This document shows, piece after piece, positions 4,196 to 18,256 of a stretch of DNA of 35,802 bases (its first letter is position 1; every line of letters begins with the position of its first letter). Origin of the DNA: Gammaproteobacteria bacterium (GTDB lineage: Bacteria; Pseudomonadota; Gammaproteobacteria; Xanthomonadales; Marinicellaceae); assembly GCA_024280395.1 (NCBI GenBank), contig JAJRQG010000156.1, forward strand, positions 1-35,802. Reading direction: 5' to 3'. The translations under genes were made by a program, and so were the position numbers. The notes beneath the pieces are model-generated. The model was given only the letters and a program-made list of their open reading frames with translations. It did no database searches and was not told the DNA's origin.

Positions 4196-4224
4196 ATTAT
4201 AACTTAAAAGTAGTTGCACAAAAA
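4196..4224 (-). promoter_or_regulatory. Probable promoter of the dsbA/cytochrome c4 run
   Basis: Reading leftward there is a perfect TATAAT (4201-4196) with a T-rich -35 (TTTTTG, 4224-4219) 17 bases upstream. It predicts a leader of about 26 bases before the ATG at 4163. The -35 is poor, so confidence rests on the -10 and the position. Confidence 0.4.
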
Positions 4225-4249
4225 AGGGCAATCAACAACTCTATTAACT

Positions 4250-4714
4250 ATGCGCATCAAACAATTGGCAAAAATATTCAAATCTCAACATGGTCGGCTA
4301 TATATCTGTGCCGTGGCGATCACCAGAAATCGCCAAGCCGCAGAAGACGCTGTTCACGATGCTGTAATCGCTGTAGCGCAAACAAGCAGCGATATAAAAG
4401 ACTTAAAAGCCTATCTGTTTTCAACGGTTAGAAACAAAGCCAAGTATGCTTGTGTTAAGAACAGTAAACAGCAGTCAAACCTTGAAGGCATTTTGCTGTG
4501 TGATGATACAACGCAACAACAAATTTTTTCTAGTCAGCTTTTCCAACAGTTAGAAAAACTACTGCCTGAACAACAAGAAACCATCATCATGAAAATTTTT
4601 GGTGGATTAACATTTAAAGAAATTGCCCTAGCGACCAATCAACCGTTAAACACTGTTGCCTCTTGGTATCGCCGTGGACTACAAACATTGAAGGAGAAAA
4701 TTAATGAACAATGA
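4250..4714 (+). CDS. Sigma-70 family (ECF-like) RNA polymerase sigma factor
   Basis: 154 residues from the ATG at 4250; the open frame extends to a TTG at 4214, but the extra 12 residues add nothing to the fold and neither start has a clear ribosome-binding site. Region 2 is seen at about residues 10-65 (RLYICAVAITRNRQAAEDAVHDA, then LKAYLFSTVRNKA). Region 4 covers about 95-150, with a helix-turn-helix ending FGGLTFKEIALATNQ / LNTVASWYRRGLQTLKEKI. The LLPEQQETIIMK lead-in is typical of sigma region 4. It overlaps the next gene by 11 bases, the usual layout of a sigma factor with its membrane regulator. Confidence 0.88.
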   Translation: MRIKQLAKIFKSQHGRLYICAVAITRNRQAAEDAVHDAVIAVAQTSSDIKDLKAYLFSTVRNKAKYACVKNSKQQSNLEGILLCDDTTQQQIFSSQLFQQLEKLLPEQQETIIMKIFGGLTFKEIALATNQPLNTVASWYRRGLQTLKEKINEQ

Positions 4715-5030
4715 TATTGAAAAAACACTGTCACAATTTAAGTTAAAACCACCCAGTGAAAGCTATTTTAAAAAGACTAGTAAGATACTAAAAACAAAAG
4801 CTGTTTCAGTGCCCCTATTTAATTGGAACTATTTATTGGCTTTTGGTTTGATGCTTTCAGTTGCCTTTAATTGGTATCAATTTCAACAACCCAAAATTAC
4901 TATCGCCCCAGAATCTTTGGTCGCCAACAACTCGTCTGCACAAAATTCACAAGGTGGATACTCTGTTATACAAGGCGCCATGGTTCCTTATGGAAGCCAG
5001 CGTGATCTCATCGTCTTATTGGAGAATTAA
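4704..5030 (+). CDS. Small single-pass membrane protein, probable anti-sigma factor
   Basis: 108 residues. A cytoplasmic N-terminus of about 40 residues (DIEKTLSQFKLKPPSESYFKKT) is followed by one membrane segment (about 44-62, LLAFGLMLSVAFNWYQF) and a short Ser/Asn/Gln-rich outer tail. There is no recognisable zinc-binding anti-sigma domain. The role is inferred from its small size, topology and the 11-base overlap with the sigma-factor gene, the commonest arrangement for ECF sigma/anti-sigma pairs. The next gene starts two bases after its stop, so all three are almost certainly co-transcribed. Confidence 0.7.
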   Translation: MNNDIEKTLSQFKLKPPSESYFKKTSKILKTKAVSVPLFNWNYLLAFGLMLSVAFNWYQFQQPKITIAPESLVANNSSAQNSQGGYSVIQGAMVPYGSQRDLIVLLEN

Positions 5031-5032
5031 TA

Positions 5033-5959
5033 ATGAATAAATTGATACTATTGCTGCTATTAACAACAAACAGTCTGTTGGCCAAAGAATCACTTAAGTT
5101 ATATGTAGATACAACCATGTATTTTGTTAGCAATGAAGCCTCAGTAAAAATCAAAAAAATTTCACAAATGAAAAAATATTATGGTGGTTTTAATGAAATC
5201 CATTCGTCTCATGAATGGAGGCTATATCCTGGCGGGGTTTGGAACATAGAAACAAGACTAAATGAACAAAACATTTTCAGTATTGTGTTTTGGATTAAAG
5301 ATAAAAACAAGCCAGAGATCAATAAGGATTTCAATGTTTCAACGTTGGAAATGACTACCTTTACATTATTGAAAACCAATAAGGGGGAACTAAAGATTAA
5401 CATTGTTCCAAAAATGATAGAAGAAGAATTGCAGCCCATTAAATTGGGAGCTGATAACTTTGGATTGAATCATTTTTGTTTAAGAAATTCTGCCATTATC
5501 GTAGATGATAACTTTTATGTTGGTAAGCTTACAGGCTTTGCCGAAAGGATAGAGTTACGGTTTCCCAATTTTTACGATATAGACATTTCACTTATACCAT
5601 TGCGTGATTGGAAGCAGATAGGCACATATAATAATGGAGAAATTAGCATTGACATGGATGAAAATCATATATTAACCTTATTAAATGTTGGAGTAGGTCC
5701 TTCGGGTTATCAAAAGGGCGGACCTTTTAAAGTTTATGGTGCAATGAAACCTCCTACTCACGATCGAAATGATTTATTAGAAGGTAAAGAAAAATATGGT
5801 TTTAAAGGCGTTTCAGCCCGAATAAAGAAAATTATTTCGAAAGCCAACCGAGAAAATAAATTTTCGATCATTGGTATAACCACTGGAAACGATAACAATA
5901 CCAGTAAGCACTTGAAAAGAACCATAGGCGATATTTTTTCTGATGAAGACTGTGGTTAA
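5033..5959 (+). CDS. Secreted protein of unknown function in the sigma-factor operon
   Basis: 308 residues. Signal peptide at the start (MNKLILLLLLTTNSLLA), then a protein rich in beta-type alternating sequence with no family I recognise. It has only two cysteines in the mature part (HFCLRN and the penultimate DEDCG), which could pair. The ATG follows GGAG at a proper distance and lies two bases after the stop of the putative anti-sigma gene, so this is the third gene of that operon. By position it may be a sensor, effector or main product of the system. The only support for a role is the linkage. Confidence 0.75.
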   Translation: MNKLILLLLLTTNSLLAKESLKLYVDTTMYFVSNEASVKIKKISQMKKYYGGFNEIHSSHEWRLYPGGVWNIETRLNEQNIFSIVFWIKDKNKPEINKDFNVSTLEMTTFTLLKTNKGELKINIVPKMIEEELQPIKLGADNFGLNHFCLRNSAIIVDDNFYVGKLTGFAERIELRFPNFYDIDISLIPLRDWKQIGTYNNGEISIDMDENHILTLLNVGVGPSGYQKGGPFKVYGAMKPPTHDRNDLLEGKEKYGFKGVSARIKKIISKANRENKFSIIGITTGNDNNTSKHLKRTIGDIFSDEDCG

Positions 5960-5968
5960 TAAGAAAGC

Positions 5969-5996
5969 TATAGAGGATTCAAAAGAACCCTCTATA
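5969..5996. terminator. Hairpin between convergent genes, probable terminator
   Basis: A 12-bp stem with one mismatch (TATAGAGGATTC against GAACCCTCTATA) around an AAAA loop sits between the stop at 5959 and the stop of the leftward gene at 6007. Flanking T-runs are short on both strands, so termination efficiency is uncertain. Confidence 0.5.
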
Positions 5997-6006
5997 AAAA
6001 CACCTT

Positions 6007-7596
6007 TTAAAATACCAAAAGTGATACAACTGAATCGGCAGATGATCCATCAGGATTGCTTACTCGGCAACTCAGTTGTGTCGTGGAGCCATTTTTCTGC
6101 CTACATATGGCTTTTCTAAAGAACAGGTTAGAAGTGGGATCGACATCTGTTTGTATGAATGAGTTGCCTATATCAAAGGGGAAAGTGATGGTACATTGGC
6201 CTATATAATTGGGCACGCTGTGGGTTACAAGCAAAACTCCTGAGTTTACATTGTTAAAGGACTGAAGAGTCGTTACTGCTGAAAACCCACAGAGAAATTT
6301 AAGTCCTGCTTTCGCAAAACCATGCGAGTTAATGTCTTGTTTGGGTTTACCCGTCAGTGTCAAATCACTGTTGAGTTTTACATCCCCAGCAACATATAAT
6401 CCATCTGTTGGCAGCTGTGCCAAACTTCCACTACCACCACCTATAGCTGTACCTCCATTGCCGGCAACAATCAATTTAGTTAAACCATTGACGTTGGCTT
6501 TGAGCGGGCTGCCGCCATCAAGAGTCAAAGTTGATACGGCAACATTGCTGTCACCTGTTACCTGCATTTTCCCATCAACATTTAGATCTGATCTCGCCAG
6601 TACGTTGCCTTGTACCACCAAGCCATTAATTTCCGGAGCTGAATTGCCCCCCAATGAAGTACCTCCATTGTTATAAATGCGCATTTTGGTTGCGTTATTG
6701 ATTTTGATTCGCAATGGGTTTTCAGCAGCGCCAGAATTTATTTGCAAAGCCGTTGAACCTGAAAAATCAGCAGACCCAATTGCCAAATTACCGTAAACTT
6801 TCATGTTGGATTTGGCCAACACGCTGCCTTCTATATTTAAACCATTGCCTGGCGCTAGGTCAGGACTACTGCCAATACTGGTTTTGCCTAATTGTACATT
6901 GCCTGCAACCCGTAAGCCATTAGTGGGAATCTGTCCATCATTGTAGTTTGCACCTACTCCAGCACCACCATTTTTACTAATCCTAAAGCGCGTACCAACT
7001 CCACCAACCAGTATCCGCAATGGTGATTCATTGACCTCTGACACAATTTGAAAAGTGTCTCCAGCAGAGGCAACTAAATTACCAATGATAACATCACCTA
7101 TGTACTGAACACCTCCAAAGTTTTCACTCCAATAAGGGCTTCCTGAGTTATCAATTCCTGCAACCCAATTGCTGCCGTCAAACTTTAAGACTTGTCCGGT
7201 TGTTGCTCCATTTGCCGCTAAAAAATCTGCCTGAATGGCATAAGGCGTGGCATTAATGCGCTGTTTAGGAGACATCGTGATATAACTGCCTGTAGAAGTA
7301 CCTTCGCGGACTTGTATTTTTAAAAACCAATCATCCCCAGTAAATGGTGCATCAGTAAAATCAAGTTCCATGGTAAAAATCCCATCGACGACTTCTACAT
7401 CAGCGATTTCTAAAGCTGAGCCAAAAAAACTACCACCTATTGCTTGGTTCCAAAGTTCCACTTTGAAATCATAAGTTCCGGTCACAGAGACGCCATTAAA
7501 CTGCAACTGCCCTTGATAACTAAAGCGTGATCCGACAGGAGCGCTTAATGTTGTTGTTGATATGATTAGTAAAATCACCATGGTTATTGTTTTCAT
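6007..7596 (-). CDS. Secreted fibre-like protein with internal repeats
   Basis: 529 residues with signal peptide (to about residue 19, LSAPVG). Residues about 25-125 form a head domain (FSYQGQLQFNGVSV ... GIFTMELDF ... MSPKQRINATPYA) that is clearly related to the head of the neighbouring 519-residue protein. Three repeats of about 45 residues follow at about 191-236, 292-335 and 363-410. They share SPLR/K, then NGGTxxG, then NGL/DGL.VxG.V, and are linked by further Asn/Gly-rich strands, as in trimeric tail-fibre and adhesin stalks. The C-terminal 100 residues have four cysteines and look globular. There is no outer-membrane anchor. Probable surface or secreted structural protein; function unknown. 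Last gene of the leftward cluster. Confidence 0.82.
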   Translation of the reverse strand: MKTITMVILLIISTTTLSAPVGSRFSYQGQLQFNGVSVTGTYDFKVELWNQAIGGSFFGSALEIADVEVVDGIFTMELDFTDAPFTGDDWFLKIQVREGTSTGSYITMSPKQRINATPYAIQADFLAANGATTGQVLKFDGSNWVAGIDNSGSPYWSENFGGVQYIGDVIIGNLVASAGDTFQIVSEVNESPLRILVGGVGTRFRISKNGGAGVGANYNDGQIPTNGLRVAGNVQLGKTSIGSSPDLAPGNGLNIEGSVLAKSNMKVYGNLAIGSADFSGSTALQINSGAAENPLRIKINNATKMRIYNNGGTSLGGNSAPEINGLVVQGNVLARSDLNVDGKMQVTGDSNVAVSTLTLDGGSPLKANVNGLTKLIVAGNGGTAIGGGSGSLAQLPTDGLYVAGDVKLNSDLTLTGKPKQDINSHGFAKAGLKFLCGFSAVTTLQSFNNVNSGVLLVTHSVPNYIGQCTITFPFDIGNSFIQTDVDPTSNLFFRKAICRQKNGSTTQLSCRVSNPDGSSADSVVSLLVF

Positions 7597-7608
7597 ATTT
7601 ATTGCTCC

Positions 7609-7890
7609 TTATTCAAAGCTGTCTTTAAAAATTGATTCGCCGGATTGGCCCGATTGTTGCCAAAAACCACTGGACAGTTTGTAATTGCCACCCTGTGATT
7701 TTTCTGTTACCACTTGGGCAATGCTGCCGGTTAGTTTGTAGCCGTTACCTAAACTGGTTTCCCCACCACTGGCGATAACATGTTGCTTGATTGAGTAACC
7801 ATTGCCAGCAATAGTTGAAGTCAATACAAAAGATAGGCCAAATAATATAATTAGCTGGCGAGTTATAGTTGTTATTGGTTTATTTTTCAT
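7609..7890 (-). CDS. Small secreted 'SIxQ' protein with C-terminal FKDSFE tag
   Basis: 93 residues. Basic N-terminus and hydrophobic segment ending near LTSTIAG (signal peptide). A short Gly-rich beta domain follows (SIKQHVIASGGETSLGNGYKLTGSIAQ, then GGNYKLSSGFWQQ). The protein ends IFKDSFE. It is homologous to the 96-residue protein at 9533: both have IKQ, GG, GN.Y, SI.Q and a terminal FKD.FE. I recall a similar 'GGxSxGGxYxLxGTIGQ' pattern from small secreted proteins in several phyla, of unknown function. It lies 12 bases before the 529-residue fibre protein, in the same order as the other pair. Confidence 0.78.
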   Translation of the reverse strand: MKNKPITTITRQLIILFGLSFVLTSTIAGNGYSIKQHVIASGGETSLGNGYKLTGSIAQVVTEKSQGGNYKLSSGFWQQSGQSGESIFKDSFE

Positions 7891-7930
7891 TTGTGTTGCT
7901 CTTTTAATCTAACTTTGCTTTTTTGTACAT

Positions 7931-9490
7931 TTACAAGTCTTCAAATAGAGAGCCTGCAACCCAGTCATAATCACCTGTAGCAACACGTTGTTTGCCACCG
8001 CTAATGGAAGAATAGCCTCCCCCAACAGTTAAATTTTGATATCCGCCACTGATACTGGATCTATTGCCATCGGCCATATTGCCTTGCCCACCACTAACAC
8101 TGGTAAAGTTTGCTCTGGCTTGGTTTGCGAGGCCACCACTAACGGTTGAGTATATGCCACTGGCTACATTGGCTTCTCCACCTATTGCACTGGATTGTGT
8201 GCCCGTAGCTTCATTTTTCCAACCACCTGCAACACTTGATTCTTGACCGCTTGCTATATTTTGATAACCGCCACTAATGCTTGAGGATGAACCGCTGGCA
8301 ATTCCACCAATGCCGCCACTGATTGCCGAATAACTGCCATTGGCATTGTTGTCCCGGCCTCCACTAACCACAGAACGACCTGAATTGGCATGATTTTGTA
8401 GTCCGCCAACAACTGCTGATGCATGTCCTGCGGTATCATTTTTAAACCCACTTAATATTGATGATGATTGGCCAACGGTTCTATCCGTACCATCACCCGT
8501 GGTGTTTTGATAACCACCTACCACAACTGAATAATTGGCATAGGCTTCATTTCCATCGGTTGGGCCTCCTGTATAACCACCTCCGACTACAACTGAATAT
8601 TTGCCACTTGCAGTGTTTCTTCTTCCTCCAGATATACTTGATGTTACGCCGCTAGCTTGGTTCGATTCGCCACCGCTAACACTGGCATTATCAGCTGTGG
8701 CATTGTTACCCAAACCACCGCTGACACTTGCAGAATCGCCAGAGGCAAAACCAAAACTACCACCACTAATACTGGCATAAGCACCACTGATGGTATTTTT
8801 CCAGCCAGCAACTAAGCCGCCATAATTGCTATAGCTGTTGTTTTTACCTACTACAAGATTATGCGAACCAGTGCGCAATTGTGTTCCTGTGTTTTCATTG
8901 TAACCAATCACTAAATTGCCTAGGCCATTTATAGTTGCATCGGTAGCACCCAGGCCGTTTTGTATATTTAAATTGGCACCACTTACGGTCATTTCTTGTC
9001 CGCTAACACTGATGAATTGTGTTTTTCCTTGTAAGGATGTAACAATTGTATCCAAGATATTAATTTGGTTTTGTAAGGTAGTTATTTGCCCAATCAAGGC
9101 CAAATCAGTTGAATCTAGCCCGTCCAGTTTATCCGCATTGTCGGCTGAAAATGAGTGAGGCACCGACATCAAAGCCTGCCTTGGGGATTGTGGGTCGCCA
9201 TCAATTGTAAGATTCACCCAAACATCACCTGAAAACAAATTGGCATCTAAGGGGTCGGTATTGCCCAAAACTACAGCAAACACACCATTGTTAACATTGA
9301 TACTTGTAAAACTTTCTTGCCAAAAAGCTGAGCCGTTTAGGGCGGCATCAAAAAAAGTAACAACAACGGACACATTGCCATTAACGGCAACACCATTGTT
9401 TGTCACGACTCCTTGATAAGTCATGGTAGGCGTCAAGGCATTGGCTTTTATAGCCACAATGCTGATCATAATTAATAGTATTTTTTTCAT
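7931..9490 (-). CDS. Secreted YadA-head-like repeat protein (beta-roll adhesin/fibre type)
   Basis: 519 residues from the ATG at 9490, which has GGAG eight bases upstream and opens a signal peptide (KKILLIMISIVAIKANA). The frame continues to 9520 without sense. Residues about 22-120 form the YQG head domain shared with the 529-residue neighbour. A short coiled coil follows (about 128-156, GQITTLQNQINILDTIVTSL). From about 190 to 510 come some twenty repeats of about 14 residues built on S.SGG..N.A.G, the left-handed beta-roll pattern of YadA-type trimeric autotransporter heads. The C-terminus (WVAGSLFEDL) lacks the YadA membrane anchor, so it is not a normal autotransporter. Likely a trimeric extracellular fibre; partner unknown. 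Confidence 0.85.
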   Translation of the reverse strand: MKKILLIMISIVAIKANALTPTMTYQGVVTNNGVAVNGNVSVVVTFFDAALNGSAFWQESFTSINVNNGVFAVVLGNTDPLDANLFSGDVWVNLTIDGDPQSPRQALMSVPHSFSADNADKLDGLDSTDLALIGQITTLQNQINILDTIVTSLQGKTQFISVSGQEMTVSGANLNIQNGLGATDATINGLGNLVIGYNENTGTQLRTGSHNLVVGKNNSYSNYGGLVAGWKNTISGAYASISGGSFGFASGDSASVSGGLGNNATADNASVSGGESNQASGVTSSISGGRRNTASGKYSVVVGGGYTGGPTDGNEAYANYSVVVGGYQNTTGDGTDRTVGQSSSILSGFKNDTAGHASAVVGGLQNHANSGRSVVSGGRDNNANGSYSAISGGIGGIASGSSSSISGGYQNIASGQESSVAGGWKNEATGTQSSAIGGEANVASGIYSTVSGGLANQARANFTSVSGGQGNMADGNRSSISGGYQNLTVGGGYSSISGGKQRVATGDYDWVAGSLFEDL

Positions 9491-9532
9491 TTTAAGTTCT
9501 CCAAATCTTTTTAAGTTCATTTCTTTCTTGTG

Positions 9533-9823
9533 CTACTCAAAGTCATCTTTAAATAATTCATTGTTACGTGGTGCAGCTAGAATTCCACCAATAAACTGTT
9601 GACCGCCACCAGTGGTAATATGTCCAGCATCAATCTGCCCAATTGAACTGATGACCACATAATTGTTGCCAGACATTTTTCCGCCTCCAGTTGAAAAGGT
9701 CTGTTTAATTAATGAGTTGCTATTAATTCCATTGGGTTTGTTTAGATTTGTTGCTTGTTTTTTTGCAAGACTAGCAACCGAGAAAAGAGCAGAAGCTATG
9801 AAAACCATCAACTTGATATTCAT
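9533..9823 (-). CDS. Small secreted 'SIGQ' protein with C-terminal FKDDFE tag
   Basis: 96 residues: signal peptide (MNIKLMVFIASALFSVASLA), a linker, then a Gly-rich domain (LIKQTFSTGGGKMSGNNYVVISSIGQ, GGGQQFIGG) and the end LFKDDFE. Homologous to the 93-residue protein at 7609. Its ATG overlaps the stop of the upstream gene as TAATG at 9823, so translation is coupled to it. The fibre gene at 9490 follows after 42 bases. Function unknown; the constant pairing with a fibre gene suggests a shared assembly or a structural cap. Confidence 0.78.
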   Translation of the reverse strand: MNIKLMVFIASALFSVASLAKKQATNLNKPNGINSNSLIKQTFSTGGGKMSGNNYVVISSIGQIDAGHITTGGGQQFIGGILAAPRNNELFKDDFE

Positions 9824-10575
9824 TATTGATTCTTTGCGCTGAACGCATCTCTGAAAAACAGATGAGTGAGTGAAACCAAAATCAATAACAGAATAAATAA
9901 TCCAGCAGAGTTAAACAATGGAACAGTTTGTACAGAATTTCCGGCAGCAGCACCCGCACTAATGCTATCAATGGCCAATAAACCACTGTTAAAAGGAGCA
10001 ACTCCAGTGCCAGTCACATAGAACAAAAAAGCCACTCGACCATTGCCGTTCACATTTACCGAATATTGTGTCCAAGTTTTGGGGTAACCATCAAGGTCTT
10101 GGTTGGGGTTGATGGACAACAGCTGCTGAAAATCGCCAAAATTATTGAGGCCTTTCGTGTTGAGAGGTTGTTGAGATTCACATGTGCCAGTGTTGATGTT
10201 GCCTGTTGGGCTATACATCACAAGCATACGTGTTAACTCATTGGCGTTGGTTTGACTGCGTGTATAAAAACTCAATTGTTCTATGTTTCCAATGTCTGGC
10301 ATGATAAGCCAACTGCATATAATATTGTTGCCAGTAGCGGTGGTGTTGGCGATATAGGAAGTAGGCGCGCCAGATTGAGCTGGAAAGATATTTTCTAACC
10401 CTTGAAACCAATTCACCTTGGTGGGTGAGTCAGATCGGTTATCGAAAACCCACCCATCTGTTTGTAAGTTGCCAACATTGTCAAAATTTTCAATGCTTTG
10501 AGCATATATAATGTTACTCAAGCTCAATAATGTTATCAAAAGAATAAACCTTTTTAGATCTGCCAACTGGTTCAT
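9823..10575 (-). CDS. Secreted beta-sandwich protein with IPTL-CTERM-like C-terminal sorting tail
   Basis: 250 residues. Signal peptide (FILLITLLSLSNIIYA) then QSIENFDNVGNLQTDGWVF, the opening typical of choice-of-anchor J / cleaved-adhesin type jelly-roll domains, up to about residue 208. The tail has the three-part sorting layout: a short proline-containing motif (QTVPLFNSAG), a hydrophobic segment (LFILLLILVSLTHLFF), and a charged end (RDAFSAKNQ). It resembles IPTL-CTERM tails though the final Arg cluster is weak. Such tails are held in the membrane and processed by exosortase-type enzymes; none is seen in this window. GGAG precedes the ATG. First gene of the leftward cluster and translationally coupled to the next. 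Confidence 0.78.
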   Translation of the reverse strand: MNQLADLKRFILLITLLSLSNIIYAQSIENFDNVGNLQTDGWVFDNRSDSPTKVNWFQGLENIFPAQSGAPTSYIANTTATGNNIICSWLIMPDIGNIEQLSFYTRSQTNANELTRMLVMYSPTGNINTGTCESQQPLNTKGLNNFGDFQQLLSINPNQDLDGYPKTWTQYSVNVNGNGRVAFLFYVTGTGVAPFNSGLLAIDSISAGAAAGNSVQTVPLFNSAGLFILLLILVSLTHLFFRDAFSAKNQ

Positions 10576-10693: not shown

Positions 10694-13048
10694 ATGACCA
10701 ACCAAGCCAAAATAGAAACGGAACAAAAAAAAATCTATACTTTTCTCGATTTTGAAATCAACCCGAATTTGCGTGAAATACATCAAGTAAAAGCACCCTT
10801 GAAAATAAGCAAAAAAAGTTTTGACATTTTACTTTTGTTGATTGAAAAACAAGGAAATGTTGTGACCAAAGATGAAATCATAAATAGAGTATGGCCAAAT
10901 CAAATTGTTACAGATGCAGCGTTGAATAAACAGATTACTCGATTAAGAAACGATCTATCAATCAACCAATCGACAGAGCACCCCATTATTGAAACGGTTA
11001 GAGGTGTTGGAGTAAAATTAATACCAACAGTGCAGATAAAACCATTCAAAACACCATCGAGCACATCAAAAAAATCGCTCTGGTTAGCACCCATTATTGT
11101 TGTTTTATTGATGTATATAACAAACTATTATTTTCTCAGTAATCCACAGCGCCAAGAGCCTTTACCAACCACAAAAACGACAGAAAGCAAATCTTTCAAT
11201 ATAGTCTTGATGCCAGCTAAAAAAGCAGTTGATTGGTTGAATGTTGGTGGTTTAGGTTATCTTTCTACTCAACTACATCAACACCAAGAAATTCAGTCTA
11301 TTGGTCCTAAAATAAAATGGTTTGATCAAGGTGACAATCTTGCACGTGCCATTGATATATCCCAAAGGGAAGGGATAGATTTTGTGCTTACTGTTAATAA
11401 TTTGAAAAAAGACGAAGGTTATAAAACTGATTTATTGTTGAGAAATAAAGAAGGTATATTGGCGAAACAATCAATGCAAGCAGAGAGTTTGGCTGTATTG
11501 TTTGACAAAATTGATTCTTGGGTAACTCGACAATTAAAGATCACTGAAAAATTGTCCAAGGGAGAACTTAATAATTATCATCCAACTGATTTTGCATTAG
11601 AAAGTTACTTGAGAGGCCGAGAACTAGCATTGTATAAGAGTTATAGTAAAGCAACACTGTTATTTCAAACTGCAATCAATGAAGACCCTTTGTTTTTTAA
11701 AGCAAGACTGGCTTTAGCCGATGCAGAGTCGGAACTGGGAAACTATACAAAATCTTTGGCATTGATTGATGTGATGTTAAACCGCAAAGATTTTGATAAA
11801 AGATTGTTTAATCACCTGTATACAATAAAAGCCAAAAATTTAATGTTTTTAAACAAATACGATGAGGCGCATCAGGCACTTGATAAGTCTATACAAATTT
11901 CTAAACAGCTACATGATTATAGTACATTAGTAAGAGCAATGACTGTTAAAGTTGTGATTGATGCCAATACAAACAACATTAGCCAAAAAACAATAGACCT
12001 CTTACTAAAACAGTTAGAAATATTAAGAGAACACAAACCAGACCCCGGTTTAATTGCACTAGCAAGTTCAAACTTAGCCGGCATGTATCAAAATCTTGGG
12101 CAATTACAATCAGCCATAAAATATGCAAAAGTAGCAACTGACATGTATAACATCTTAAATGACGACCATGGAATTGTGTTTAGCAACACTGTTTTAGCGC
12201 GAATATACAACTCTATGGGGGATATTGGAAAAGCCTTGTTGGTGCTAGATAAAATAGATGCAACGTATCAAAAACTTGATGGGCTCCAAGTTCCTCGTCT
12301 GTATTTGCAATACAAAACAGAAAATCAAACCTATTTTGGATTAAAAAAAGAAGCACTAATAACCATTAATAAATTACAAAATTTAAGTCTAACTCATACA
12401 GATTTGACAGCTAAGGTCATTGCCCTAGCATTACTTGCAGACTTGAATATAATCTATGAAGATTATTCGGCGGCCAAATTAAATATTAAGCAACTGCTCG
12501 AAATAAATCAATCAAAACCTTCAGGATATGTTTCTGCCTATAAGAACATAATTTTTGCTTATGATTTATATATTTACGCTTTAACCGAAGAGTCAGATAA
12601 GGCCAGGGCCAAATTAAATGCTTATATCCAAGACAACCCAAGCTTTTCCAAAGGTTATAGCAAAGAGATTAAAAATATTGAAGCCATTATTTTGAACAAA
12701 GAAGGCTTCAAAACAGAAGCAGTGAAAATTTATCGTGAGTTAATGGACGAATATACTCAATCTAATCAAGCAATAAATACGCTTTATACAGGCTACAAAC
12801 TTTTAGACATCCAATGGCAAAACAATCGACAAGATTATATCAAGACCATGAATTATTTGGATGAAATTGCTATTTTTAAATATCCCATCCATAAATACAA
12901 AGCGCAATATTTAGCTGATAGAAAAGAGTACACCAGCGCTTATGTCATGATGGAAGGTTTAAAAAGTAAAGCCAATGAATTTTGGACCACTGATGATCAA
13001 ATTTTATTGGAACAATACCAAGAATTGGCCAAGAACAAAGGTCTCTAA
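10694..13048 (+). CDS. Membrane-bound winged-helix transcriptional regulator with TPR sensor domain (CadC-like)
   Basis: 784 residues. An OmpR/PhoB-type winged-helix DNA-binding domain (about 15-111: LKISKKSFDILLLLIEKQGNVV, then ALNKQITRLRNDL and TVRGVGVKL) is followed by one membrane segment (about 129-148). The rest, about 600 residues, is periplasmic: a mixed domain to about 290, then tetratricopeptide-like helical repeats (FKARLALADAESELGNY, IALASSNLAGMYQNLGQL, HGIVFSNTVLARIYNSMGDI). CadC/ToxR-type proteins bind DNA from the membrane in response to an outer signal. It is divergent from the secreted fibre cluster with a 118-base shared upstream region, so that cluster is its likeliest target; this is inference. 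Confidence 0.88.
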   Translation: MTNQAKIETEQKKIYTFLDFEINPNLREIHQVKAPLKISKKSFDILLLLIEKQGNVVTKDEIINRVWPNQIVTDAALNKQITRLRNDLSINQSTEHPIIETVRGVGVKLIPTVQIKPFKTPSSTSKKSLWLAPIIVVLLMYITNYYFLSNPQRQEPLPTTKTTESKSFNIVLMPAKKAVDWLNVGGLGYLSTQLHQHQEIQSIGPKIKWFDQGDNLARAIDISQREGIDFVLTVNNLKKDEGYKTDLLLRNKEGILAKQSMQAESLAVLFDKIDSWVTRQLKITEKLSKGELNNYHPTDFALESYLRGRELALYKSYSKATLLFQTAINEDPLFFKARLALADAESELGNYTKSLALIDVMLNRKDFDKRLFNHLYTIKAKNLMFLNKYDEAHQALDKSIQISKQLHDYSTLVRAMTVKVVIDANTNNISQKTIDLLLKQLEILREHKPDPGLIALASSNLAGMYQNLGQLQSAIKYAKVATDMYNILNDDHGIVFSNTVLARIYNSMGDIGKALLVLDKIDATYQKLDGLQVPRLYLQYKTENQTYFGLKKEALITINKLQNLSLTHTDLTAKVIALALLADLNIIYEDYSAAKLNIKQLLEINQSKPSGYVSAYKNIIFAYDLYIYALTEESDKARAKLNAYIQDNPSFSKGYSKEIKNIEAIILNKEGFKTEAVKIYRELMDEYTQSNQAINTLYTGYKLLDIQWQNNRQDYIKTMNYLDEIAIFKYPIHKYKAQYLADRKEYTSAYVMMEGLKSKANEFWTTDDQILLEQYQELAKNKGL

Positions 13049-13783: not shown

Positions 13784-13957
13784 TTGAGCTTTATCCTAAT
13801 CAAGCAAGTATTCTAAATAAATCAAACCATTAGATGCAAGCAAAGGGTTAAAAGTTCAAGATTAATCATTGTTGCGGTGAATAAAAACGCTAATCAACGC
13901 AATTTATAAGGGGAATATTGTTGTTTCATGGGCTTTATGGTTTAATTGCTGCATATA

Positions 13958-15085
13958 ATGCGGAGATTAGTAATTTATATTTACCAGCAAAAGCAGTGGC
14001 CAAATTTCACATGGGATAATGAAGCATTGTTACCTGTACTAAGCGATGTGCGTTATCTGCAAGGAAAGTTAATAGGTAAAATGCAGTTTTTAGGCTTTGA
14101 TCTGCAAAATGAAGCACTGCTGAAAACTTTAACTCAGGAGGCCTTGAAAACATCTGAAATTGAAGGAGAGAGTTTAAATTTACAACAGATTCGTTCATCT
14201 GTGGCTCGAAAACTTGGTATAGAAATAGTAGGCCTAGTGCCCTCAAATAGAAATGTAGAAGGAGTGGTGGAAATGTTATTAGATGCCACTCAAAATTATC
14301 AAAGCACATTAAGCAGAGAAAGATTGTTTGGCTGGCATTCTGCTTTATTCCCAACAGGCAGTAGCGGCTTATTTAAAATCATCACAGGCGACTGGCGGGA
14401 TGATGCCAAAGGATCAATGCAGGTGGTGTCAGGAGTGGTTGGCAAAGAAAAAATCCACTATCAAGCACCCAAGGCCTCGGTTATAAACTCGGAAATGAAT
14501 CAGTTTTTATTTTGGCTCAATGCAAAATCCAGTGTTGACCCAGTTTTAAAAGCAGGTATTGCACACCTTTGGTTTATCAGCATTCATCCATTTGATGATG
14601 GCAATGGTAGAATCGCGCGAGCCATTACCGATAGCCAATTAGCAGATTCAGATGGAACATTTCAACGCTTTTATAGCATGTCCGCTCAAATTCAAAAACA
14701 AAGACAGGAATACTACAATATACTAGAACAAACCCAAAAAGGAGATATGGATATAACCAATTGGCTAAATTGGTTTCTAAACTGTTTACGAGGAGCCATT
14801 AATCTATCTAACCAGGAATTAGAAAGCACCATAAATAAACACAACTTTTGGAATAAAAATGCCAGCAATATTAACAATGAAAGACAGAAGTTTGTTTTAA
14901 GCATTCTGCTAGATGGCTTTAAAGGAAAAATAAATACTTCAAAATGGGCAAAGCTCACAAACTGCTCAAGTGATACCGCATTGAGAGATATACAAGACTT
15001 GGTTAAGAAAGGTATATTGATAAAAAAAGACAAGGGCGGAAGAAGCACAGCTTATGAATTAATAATGATAAATGATGAATGTTAA
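13958..15085 (+). CDS. Fic-family protein (AMPylation enzyme) with N-terminal inhibitory helix
   Basis: 375 residues from the ATG at 13958; the frame reaches a TTG at 13946. The Fic active-site loop HPFDDGNGRIAR lies at 210-221 with catalytic His210, so the ATP-using AMP-transfer site is intact. An inhibitory motif of the (S/T)xxxE(G/N) kind is present before the core (Thr65-Glu69-Gly70), which in class II Fic proteins blocks ATP until relieved. The N-terminus (WPNFTWDNEAL ... LQGKLIGKM) matches the extra domain common in such proteins. A C-terminal winged-helix-like part (NINNERQKFVLSIL ... KGILIKKDKGGRSTAYEL) suggests DNA binding or self-regulation. Target unknown. Overlaps the next gene by 14 bases. 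Confidence 0.92.
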   Translation: MRRLVIYIYQQKQWPNFTWDNEALLPVLSDVRYLQGKLIGKMQFLGFDLQNEALLKTLTQEALKTSEIEGESLNLQQIRSSVARKLGIEIVGLVPSNRNVEGVVEMLLDATQNYQSTLSRERLFGWHSALFPTGSSGLFKIITGDWRDDAKGSMQVVSGVVGKEKIHYQAPKASVINSEMNQFLFWLNAKSSVDPVLKAGIAHLWFISIHPFDDGNGRIARAITDSQLADSDGTFQRFYSMSAQIQKQRQEYYNILEQTQKGDMDITNWLNWFLNCLRGAINLSNQELESTINKHNFWNKNASNINNERQKFVLSILLDGFKGKINTSKWAKLTNCSSDTALRDIQDLVKKGILIKKDKGGRSTAYELIMINDEC

Positions 15086-17437: not shown

Positions 17438-18256
17438 ATGGTCAAACACAGCAAAATAAAACTATTCAAAGGACAAAATGTTAGAACACACTGGGATGAT
17501 GATAAAGAACAGTGGCTTTTTTCTATTGTTGATGTTTGTACAATATTATCTGGAAGTATAAATCCACAGGCCTATTGGAGAAAATTAAAACAAAGATTGT
17601 TTAAAGAAGGCAATGAAACCGTGACAAATTGTCACGCTTTGAAAATGAAAGCCCAAGATGGAAAAATGCGGCTAACAGATGTTGCCAATACAGAACTGTT
17701 GTTACGCCTTATCCAATCCGTTCCATCCAAAAAAGCAGAACCATTCAAACAATGGTTGGCAAAAGTTGGTTCCGAAAGAATTGACGAAACCGATGACCCA
17801 GAGTTGGCTTTTGATCGTGCGATGAAATCCTATCTAGCCAAAGGTTATTCAAAACAATGGATAAATCAAAGGCTTAAAAGTATCGAGGTTAGAAAGGAGT
17901 TAACCGATGAATGGCAAGAACGTGGAATGAAAGAAGGGCTTGAATATGCAACCCTCTCCAATGAAATCAGCAAGGCATGGGCAGATAAAAACATCAAAGA
18001 ATACAAAAAACTTAAAGGCCTAAAAAAAGAAAACCTGAGAGACAATATGAGCAACTTAGAACTTGTTTTAAACATGCTAGCCGAAGCTTCAACCACAGAA
18101 ATCTCTAAACAAAAACAACCAGAAGGGCTGGATGCCAACAAAGATATTGCTAGAAAAGGCGGAAATGCCGCCAAACAAGCCCGGTTGGAAATTGAAAAAC
18201 AAACAGGTAGGTCGATAGTTACAAATCTGAATGCTAATAAATTAATAGAAGATTAA
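17438..18256 (+). CDS. BRO-N / DinD-like protein (phage antirepressor family)
   Basis: 272 residues. The N-terminal BRO-type DNA-binding domain (about 8-110) has WLFSIVDVCTILSGS, NPQAYWRKLKQRLFKEG and the family end TELLLRLIQSVPSKKAEPFKQWLA. A C-terminal domain follows (LTDEWQERGMKEGLEYATLSNEI, KGLKKENLRDNMSNLELVLNMLAE, then IARKGGNAAKQARLEIE and KQTGRSIV), as in the DinD / antirepressor-like proteins found across bacteria. These are DNA-associated proteins of mobile or damage-inducible genes; DinD of E. coli blocks RecA function, but whether this one does so is unknown. No LexA box is visible upstream to my eye. Four bases before a secreted hypothetical. Confidence 0.87.
   Translation: MVKHSKIKLFKGQNVRTHWDDDKEQWLFSIVDVCTILSGSINPQAYWRKLKQRLFKEGNETVTNCHALKMKAQDGKMRLTDVANTELLLRLIQSVPSKKAEPFKQWLAKVGSERIDETDDPELAFDRAMKSYLAKGYSKQWINQRLKSIEVRKELTDEWQERGMKEGLEYATLSNEISKAWADKNIKEYKKLKGLKKENLRDNMSNLELVLNMLAEASTTEISKQKQPEGLDANKDIARKGGNAAKQARLEIEKQTGRSIVTNLNANKLIED

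Follow-up and report, generated by a model that had tools for sequence, protein, structure and literature searches.

Numerous bacteria appear to build long surface fibres whose tips can be exchanged. Among the closest described systems are the mosaic adhesive trimer (MAT) fibres of Bdellovibrio, and this predatory bacterium uses MAT-type fibres in prey recognition (PMC10769870). In the abstract, passages and Discussion of that paper available here, no homologue of the constant MAT domain is reported from the Protein Data Bank (PDB), no MAT partner protein is named, and the Discussion describes the surface element for the constant domain as awaiting identification. The present study concerns a 35,802-nucleotide stretch of contig JAJRQG010000156.1 (hereafter the window) from a gammaproteobacterium of the Marinicellaceae, in which two genes for long fibre proteins sharing an N-terminal domain, here called the YQG domain, are each preceded by a gene for a small protein of 93 or 96 residues. 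The analysis favours, with somewhat better than even confidence, a two-component surface-fibre system in which the small protein acts as an exported anchor at the base of the fibre.

This reading starts from the linkage between the two genes. Profiles of the small protein (A1) and of the YQG domain (A2) were run against 41 genomes from the order to which the window belongs, revealing a small gene in 33 and a YQG domain in 32 of them; both occurred in 32 and neither in eight, and the sole genome with a small gene only was 84% complete, its small gene being cut by a contig end. In the window genome there were 13 small genes; a YQG domain lay within 300 nt downstream of 12 of them, and the remaining small gene lay 160 nt after a fibre open reading frame (ORF). 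YQG domains in this genome numbered 21. The 122 places in genomes other than that of the window were all retrieved with their surroundings and rescanned, and 134 of the 135 small matches obtained with A1 were recovered (the other had an internal stop). With pairing defined as a YQG domain at most 450 nt downstream or a fibre ORF end at most 600 nt upstream, a same-strand YQG fibre was found beside 127 of the 134 small genes (99 preceding a fibre, 20 following one, 8 doing both and 7 neither), and no YQG domain lay on the opposite strand within 2 kb of any of the 134. From the fibre side, 131 of the 154 YQG domains in the retrieved regions were paired with a small gene. One small gene stood with four fibres on contig C66 and another with two at locus L192, and a single small gene may serve several fibres. 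In an even draw of genomes from the phylum the two profiles were rare (E 1e-5): A1 matched 2 and A2 matched 4 of 299 genomes, counts that include one order member besides the window genome and that rest on only part of the candidates having been scored in some genomes. A YQG domain broken by an in-frame TAG, probably a pseudogene, was also seen at L060:6556-6945 (contig C99 of genome G000).

The pairing extends beyond the order. A scan of 84,980 species genomes with two peptide patterns, which favours canonical small proteins, yielded 54 loci: 27 in Planctomycetota, 11 in Gammaproteobacteria (several of them already in the order set), 6 in Chloroflexota, 5 in Verrucomicrobiota, 1 each in Krumholzibacteriota and Acidobacteriota, and 3 unnamed. 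The phylum labels are based partly on the record titles. At 39 of the 54 loci a same-strand YQG domain lay within 700 nt, a few of these being fragments (e.g., L320 and L321). Furthermore, 12 genomes of five other phyla were drawn from the 54 loci, three of them included despite a locus without a YQG domain, and a same-strand YQG domain was found within 5 kb of 33 of their 40 small genes, against 0.28 expected. The nearest YQG domain was never on the opposite strand, and the usual order was fibre then small gene (30/33). Because these genomes were selected for having a small gene, the result bears on pairing and not on prevalence. The functional unit of small partner plus variable fibre put forward in the initial annotation of the window is thus strongly supported by the linkage within the order, in the wider scan and in the 12 other-phylum genomes.

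Within the window, the minus strand from 10575 to 5968 looks like one operon, with the following features in the order of transcription:

9823..10575, minus strand: choice-of-anchor J domain protein, opening the apparent operon (NCBIfam NF038128, 84.4 bits, cut-off 30; TAATG overlap)
9533..9823, minus strand: small protein 2 (putative adaptor), 96 aa, with a signal-peptide-like start (by eye), a repeat core and an LFKDDFE C-terminal tail (profile A1, 77.6 bits, own sequence in profile)
7931..9520, minus strand: fibre 2, 529 aa, with the YQG domain (putative base), a YadA-like beta-roll stalk of period 15 and no F-x-D-x-F-E tail (ORF, sequence comparison)
9131..9490, minus strand: YQG/MAT-like N-terminal domain of fibre 2 (profile A2, 110.3 bits, own sequence in profile; NF053851, 25.5 bits, cut-off 60)
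7609..7890, minus strand: small protein 1 (putative adaptor), 93 aa, with a signal-peptide-like start (by eye), a repeat core and an IFKDSFE C-terminal tail (profile A1, 95.1 bits, own sequence in profile)
6007..7596, minus strand: fibre 1, 529 aa, with the YQG domain (putative base), an NGG-type stalk, a C-terminal tip and no F-x-D-x-F-E tail (ORF, sequence comparison)
7213..7596, minus strand: YQG/MAT-like N-terminal domain of fibre 1 (profile A2, 157.7 bits, own sequence in profile; AlphaFold pLDDT 83-96 in ten-residue blocks)
5968..5997, minus strand: terminator-like hairpin 3' of fibre 1, 13 pairs then a T-rich tail (consensus match only)

The 250-aa upstream gene (9823..10575) overlaps the start of small gene 2 through TAATG, and the gap between the stop of the small gene and the start of its own fibre is 12 nt in both modules. 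Terminator-like sites in the region as a whole showed no excess over shuffled sequences. The ORFs agree with the four minus-strand genes originally placed here, except that fibre 2 had been read as 519 residues, which fits an internal ATG, whereas the full ORF encodes 529. The two small proteins are homologous, as had been proposed (28% identity over 64 columns, E=0.003 on their own, and both in one profile family), and the fibres share their N-terminal domain (28% identity over 127 columns, E=6e-8). The repeats ascribed to the stalks fared less well: the YadA-like stalk of fibre 2 has a measured period of 15 rather than 14 residues, and no 45-residue NGGT repeat was found in the stalk of fibre 1, in which NGG occurs at residues 209, 310 and 380. 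No Pfam or NCBIfam model matched the small proteins or the shared fibre domain above its cut-off.

Sequence comparison indicates that the small protein is made of a conserved repeat core and a C-terminal tail that varies by lineage. The core repeat spans about 19 residues (GG-x-Y-x-L-x-G-x-I), with best lags of 19, 20 and 19 in three overlapping alignments and a period score above all 300 column shuffles in each; three repeats were counted by eye, the third being short, and the lag of 38 residues scored 10.25, inside the shuffles. In the window's order, the tail F-x-[DN]-x-F-E was present by strict pattern on 102 of 133 complete small proteins, most of the others being degenerate by eye, on none of the 127 paired fibre ORFs that are complete, and on 1 of 12 complete unpaired YQG proteins. 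This last one (L059:4302-7562, contig C19 of genome G000) is a 1086-aa protein with an N-terminal YQG domain, a subtilase-like middle (by eye) and an MFKNGFE tail, and no small gene was found in the 14-kb region around it. The same tail also ended 34 other ORFs in the retrieved regions of the order (35 unassigned tagged ORFs minus one small protein), which contained neither the small core nor the YQG domain (e.g., L050:5615-7399, L051:10597-13041 and L162:3551-5284, in G000 and related genomes), and two scrambled patterns gave none. At the DNA level, F-x-D-x-F-E-TAA had 16 sites in the window genome, of which 3 were small gene ends, and none in the control.

Other lineages have other tails. 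In Chloroflexota, the small protein ended in a YLPL-type tail at 5 of 6 loci, and the DNA pattern Y-L-P-L-[IVM]-x-(K, R or similar)-stop had 12, 3 and 13 sites in genomes G372, G373 and G374, respectively, with none in the controls; 3 of these 28 sites coincided with small gene ends by coordinates. CPxxWxL[KR] formed the end of the small protein at 13 of 15 loci picked by eye, mostly from Phycisphaerae. At L316 (Krumholzibacteriota), the small protein carried a C-terminal T9SS type A domain (TIGR04183, 34.5 bits, cut-off 23), which was above its cut-off in none of 9 other proteins scanned nor in the two window small proteins. In addition, the small protein had FG-GAP repeats at L324 and thrombospondin type 3 repeats at L314, and dockerin matches were weak and below the cut-off. 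Where the fibres were scanned for the lineage tail pattern, none carried it. F-x-[DN]-x-F-E in Lysobacterales and the YLPL type in some Chloroflexota, the latter possibly lineage-wide, are possible candidates for undescribed sorting signals.

These tails bear directly on the main rival explanation, according to which the small protein is a chaperone for fibre assembly, comparable to phage tail-fibre assembly proteins, and is absent from the finished fibre. The direct adjacency of the small gene to the fibre gene, with one small gene per one to four fibres, and the low predicted order of the small protein on its own would suit a chaperone. A transient chaperone, however, would not need a lineage-specific C-terminal tail, which in two lineages is also found on other ORFs or sites and in one is a T9SS type A domain, and none of 6 proteins had a PHROGs match; this role is therefore considered improbable. 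Phage origin was likewise rejected, on the 0/6 PHROGs result together with the absence of any phage tblastn match for one YQG domain.

A second alternative, which we rate as more doubtful still, holds that the small protein is itself a functional subunit, such as a minor pilin-like or matrix protein, with which the fibre cooperates without direct binding. The core weakly matches the NCBIfam model 'CPR-type pilus protein PamT' in three proteins (13.2 to 20 bits, cut-off 240; window 7609-7890, L293:4019-4306 and L324:3977-5056), and a few small genes stand alone. PamT is possibly a distant relative of the small core, judging from this match, and no paper on this lead was found in the open-access literature. 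The similarity is nevertheless far under the curated cut-off, and within the order the almost exclusive pairing of small genes with YQG fibres also speaks against an independent subunit.

The YQG domain itself appears to be the constant part of an otherwise exchangeable fibre. Beyond it, the fibres vary widely, including YadA-like rolls, repeated propeller-like motifs, and lectin-like and other tips (by eye). The initial annotation had taken this domain for a head; it is indeed common to both fibres, but it is probably the cell-proximal base rather than a distal head. By sequence, the YQG profile reached a best E of 0.027 against the PDB (none under E 0.02) and the small core a best E of 0.56, and Foldseek found no match under E 0.001 in the PDB and viral libraries.

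Two AlphaFold models were made of the small protein and the YQG domain of cognate pairs as one chain; of 38 in-frame pairs, 35 passed the filter, and 34 joined rows were given to A5 and 32 to A8. In both models, the YQG sandwich was confident (ten-residue means mostly 83-98), with pTM of 0.62 and 0.65. Most of the listed VIA alignments to PDB sandwiches began at residues 49-51 (first model) or 38-41 (second model), which in both is the strand of repeat 2 of the small protein (Y/F-x-L-x-G-[ST]-[IV]). Because the alignments start at this strand, the models weakly suggest that the small core contributes a strand in the position of the first strand of the YQG sandwich, in the manner of donor-strand complementation. 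Against the copper protein CrdA, VIA gave Z values of 8 to 9, which fall in the range of common arrangements, and only the alignment starts, not Z, were used here.

The two halves of the module also diverge together. Among 103 upstream pairs, the closest small protein and the closest YQG domain of another genome came from the same pair in 38 cases, against 7.6 expected and a maximum of 18 in 2000 within-genome re-pairings, and the identities of the small protein and the YQG domain were correlated at 0.392 (null maximum 0.283 in 1000). A third alternative is that the genes travel together as co-regulated or co-mobilised cargo with products that have no physical link, for which the numerous and partly clustered copies and the co-inheritance of neighbours could be cited, but linkage irrespective of gene order and across several phyla, the complementary tails (small proteins tagged, fibres not) and the absence of tblastn matches for one YQG domain in a phage collection and one small protein in a plasmid collection make it as doubtful as the second. 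Plasmid cargo was rejected on the latter search.

Several observations weigh against the small protein being the anchor of the fibre. On the side of the genes, approximately 71 of the 202 YQG domains of the order (the sum over the per-genome table of the 41 genomes) have no adjacent small gene, 7 of the 134 small genes have no YQG fibre beside them (one of these 7 lies at a contig end), and the small gene of L242 adjoins a tagged protein without a YQG domain instead. Among the 54 wider loci, the YQG domain was absent at 12 (four near a contig end), distant at 2 and on the opposite strand at 1, and 7 of the 40 small genes in the 12 other-phylum genomes had no same-strand YQG domain within 5 kb. 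Free small proteins, which the initial annotation regarded as speaking against such a unit, are nonetheless only a minority in the order and among the wider loci. On the side of the tails, the YLPL-type pattern had no site in 3 of the 6 Chloroflexota genomes, two of which have small tails outside the pattern, and the fibre of the Chloroflexota locus L301 ends in a membrane-anchor-like segment (by eye), its small protein being without YLPL. In the structure models, most of the small protein was predicted with low confidence, with ten-residue means of 38-75 in the first model and, the signal peptide apart, of 48-60 outside one hairpin of 82-88 in the second; moreover, the chains were folded as one through the stop codon, which favours contact, and comprised cognate pairs only. 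Finally, the tree-distance test of co-divergence was weak, with 72 of 2000 null values reaching the observed one, and joint inheritance of neighbours alone could explain the joint divergence.

The history of the locus appears to differ from what had been supposed. A tandem duplication of the two modules, as first proposed, was rejected on relative distances and on synteny with L192. Module 1 (small gene 7609-7890) has its closest counterparts in G009 and G002, and module 2 has them in G007 and G008, each in both halves. Of 102 modules, 98 are nearer to module 1 than module 2 is, for small protein and YQG domain alike; measured from module 2, 77 (small protein) and 18 (YQG domain) modules are nearer than module 1. 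In L192, from a genome of the same genus, the same order was found, with a choice-of-anchor-J-like gene, a small gene, a fibre-2-like gene, a fibre-1-like gene and a divergent regulator (the first and last by eye), and no second small gene, leaving one small gene for two fibres. As each module is closer to modules of other genomes and L192 has one small gene, the pair looks, from its relatives, like a juxtaposition of old paralogues and not a fresh duplication. The movement of stalks between fibres, the other half of that proposal, is plausible by comparison: the fibre 2 stalk and that of the C86 fibre of the window genome are 41.5% identical over 431 columns, a figure that repeats may inflate, whereas their YQG domains are 27.8% identical. 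Moreover, six cases were found of stalk pairs at least 50% identical over 120 aa with base domains below 36%.

Around the operon, a divergent winged-helix regulator with TPR repeats adjoins it at 10694-13048, and a similar regulator (by eye) occupies the same position in L192. On the other side, convergent with the fibre operon, 4214-5959 encodes three proteins: an ECF sigma factor, one that looks by eye like a small membrane protein, and a probably exported one of 308 aa for which Pfam gave no match. Further away, a Fic protein with a DUF4172 domain and a BRO-N domain protein lie close together (13946-15085 and 17438-18256).

The anchor reading would work as follows. The fibre protein would be exported and presumably trimerise, with the YQG domain as the putative invariant, cell-proximal base and with stalk and tip differing from copy to copy. 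The small protein would also be exported and kept at the surface by its C-terminal tail, acting as the lineage's own putative sorting or anchoring signal, and its core would bind the YQG domain and so retain the fibre, perhaps also helping its assembly. In this picture the small, presumably exported protein is probably what clips the fibre to the cell. Export is inferred from signal peptides seen by eye; binding, surface retention and an adhesive role are inferred as well. Given three core repeats and a presumed trimer, the idea arises of one adaptor per fibre. A more specific and rather speculative version, to which we give about one chance in four, is a display system spanning at least five phyla, in which the three-repeat adaptor, one repeat for each chain of a trimeric fibre, clamps three YQG bases by giving a strand to each and its tail supplies the lineage's sorting route. 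If such a clamp existed, fibres would be interchangeable between lineages, with only the adaptor tail needing to change. More generally, the analysis suggests a function for a core for which no curated Pfam or NCBIfam model passed its cut-off among the scanned proteins, and it points to C-terminal tails as putative undescribed sorting signals.

The proposed system may share single traits with several known ones. A T9SS type A sorting domain ends the small protein of L316, and the tails of other lineages differ from it. Donor-strand complementation as in chaperone-usher pili may be echoed in the two predicted models, whose VIA alignments mostly start in a strand of the small core, a likeness in working and by prediction only; a Pfam scan of 30 window proteins gave no pilus chaperone or usher. 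With the trimeric autotransporter adhesins (type Vc; YadA, UspA1), fibre 2 shares a stalk resembling YadA-type repeats (UspA1_rep, 16.7 bits, cut-off 27). The window fibres, in contrast, have no C-terminal YadA anchor by Pfam match up to E 1; their constant part is N-terminal, and retention seems to be delegated to a second protein.

The nearest comparison is with the MAT fibres of Bdellovibrio. In the curated model of their N-terminal domain (NF053851, Bdello_MAT_N, cut-off 60), the window fibres scored 25.5 and 14.7 bits, and the model exceeded its cut-off in none of 61 genomes belonging to the same order as the window and in none of 14 control genomes; with matches so far below the cut-off, the window fibres are not classed as members. 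Papers on MAT fibres were found in the open-access literature, and no title there dealt with the F-x-D-x-F-E tail or with a small partner. The opinion that no system of this shape has been described therefore holds for the partner, of which no description was found, but not for the fibres, which resemble the MAT fibres (PMC10769870). As in these, a conserved beta-rich domain of about 130 aa, with beta-strands in the model, follows a signal peptide (here recognised by eye), and exchangeable stalks and tips stand behind one constant domain in many copies per genome. A small partner that tracks a MAT-related domain through several phyla, its tail varying by lineage, is accordingly a testable candidate for the kind of surface element sought in the Discussion of that paper.

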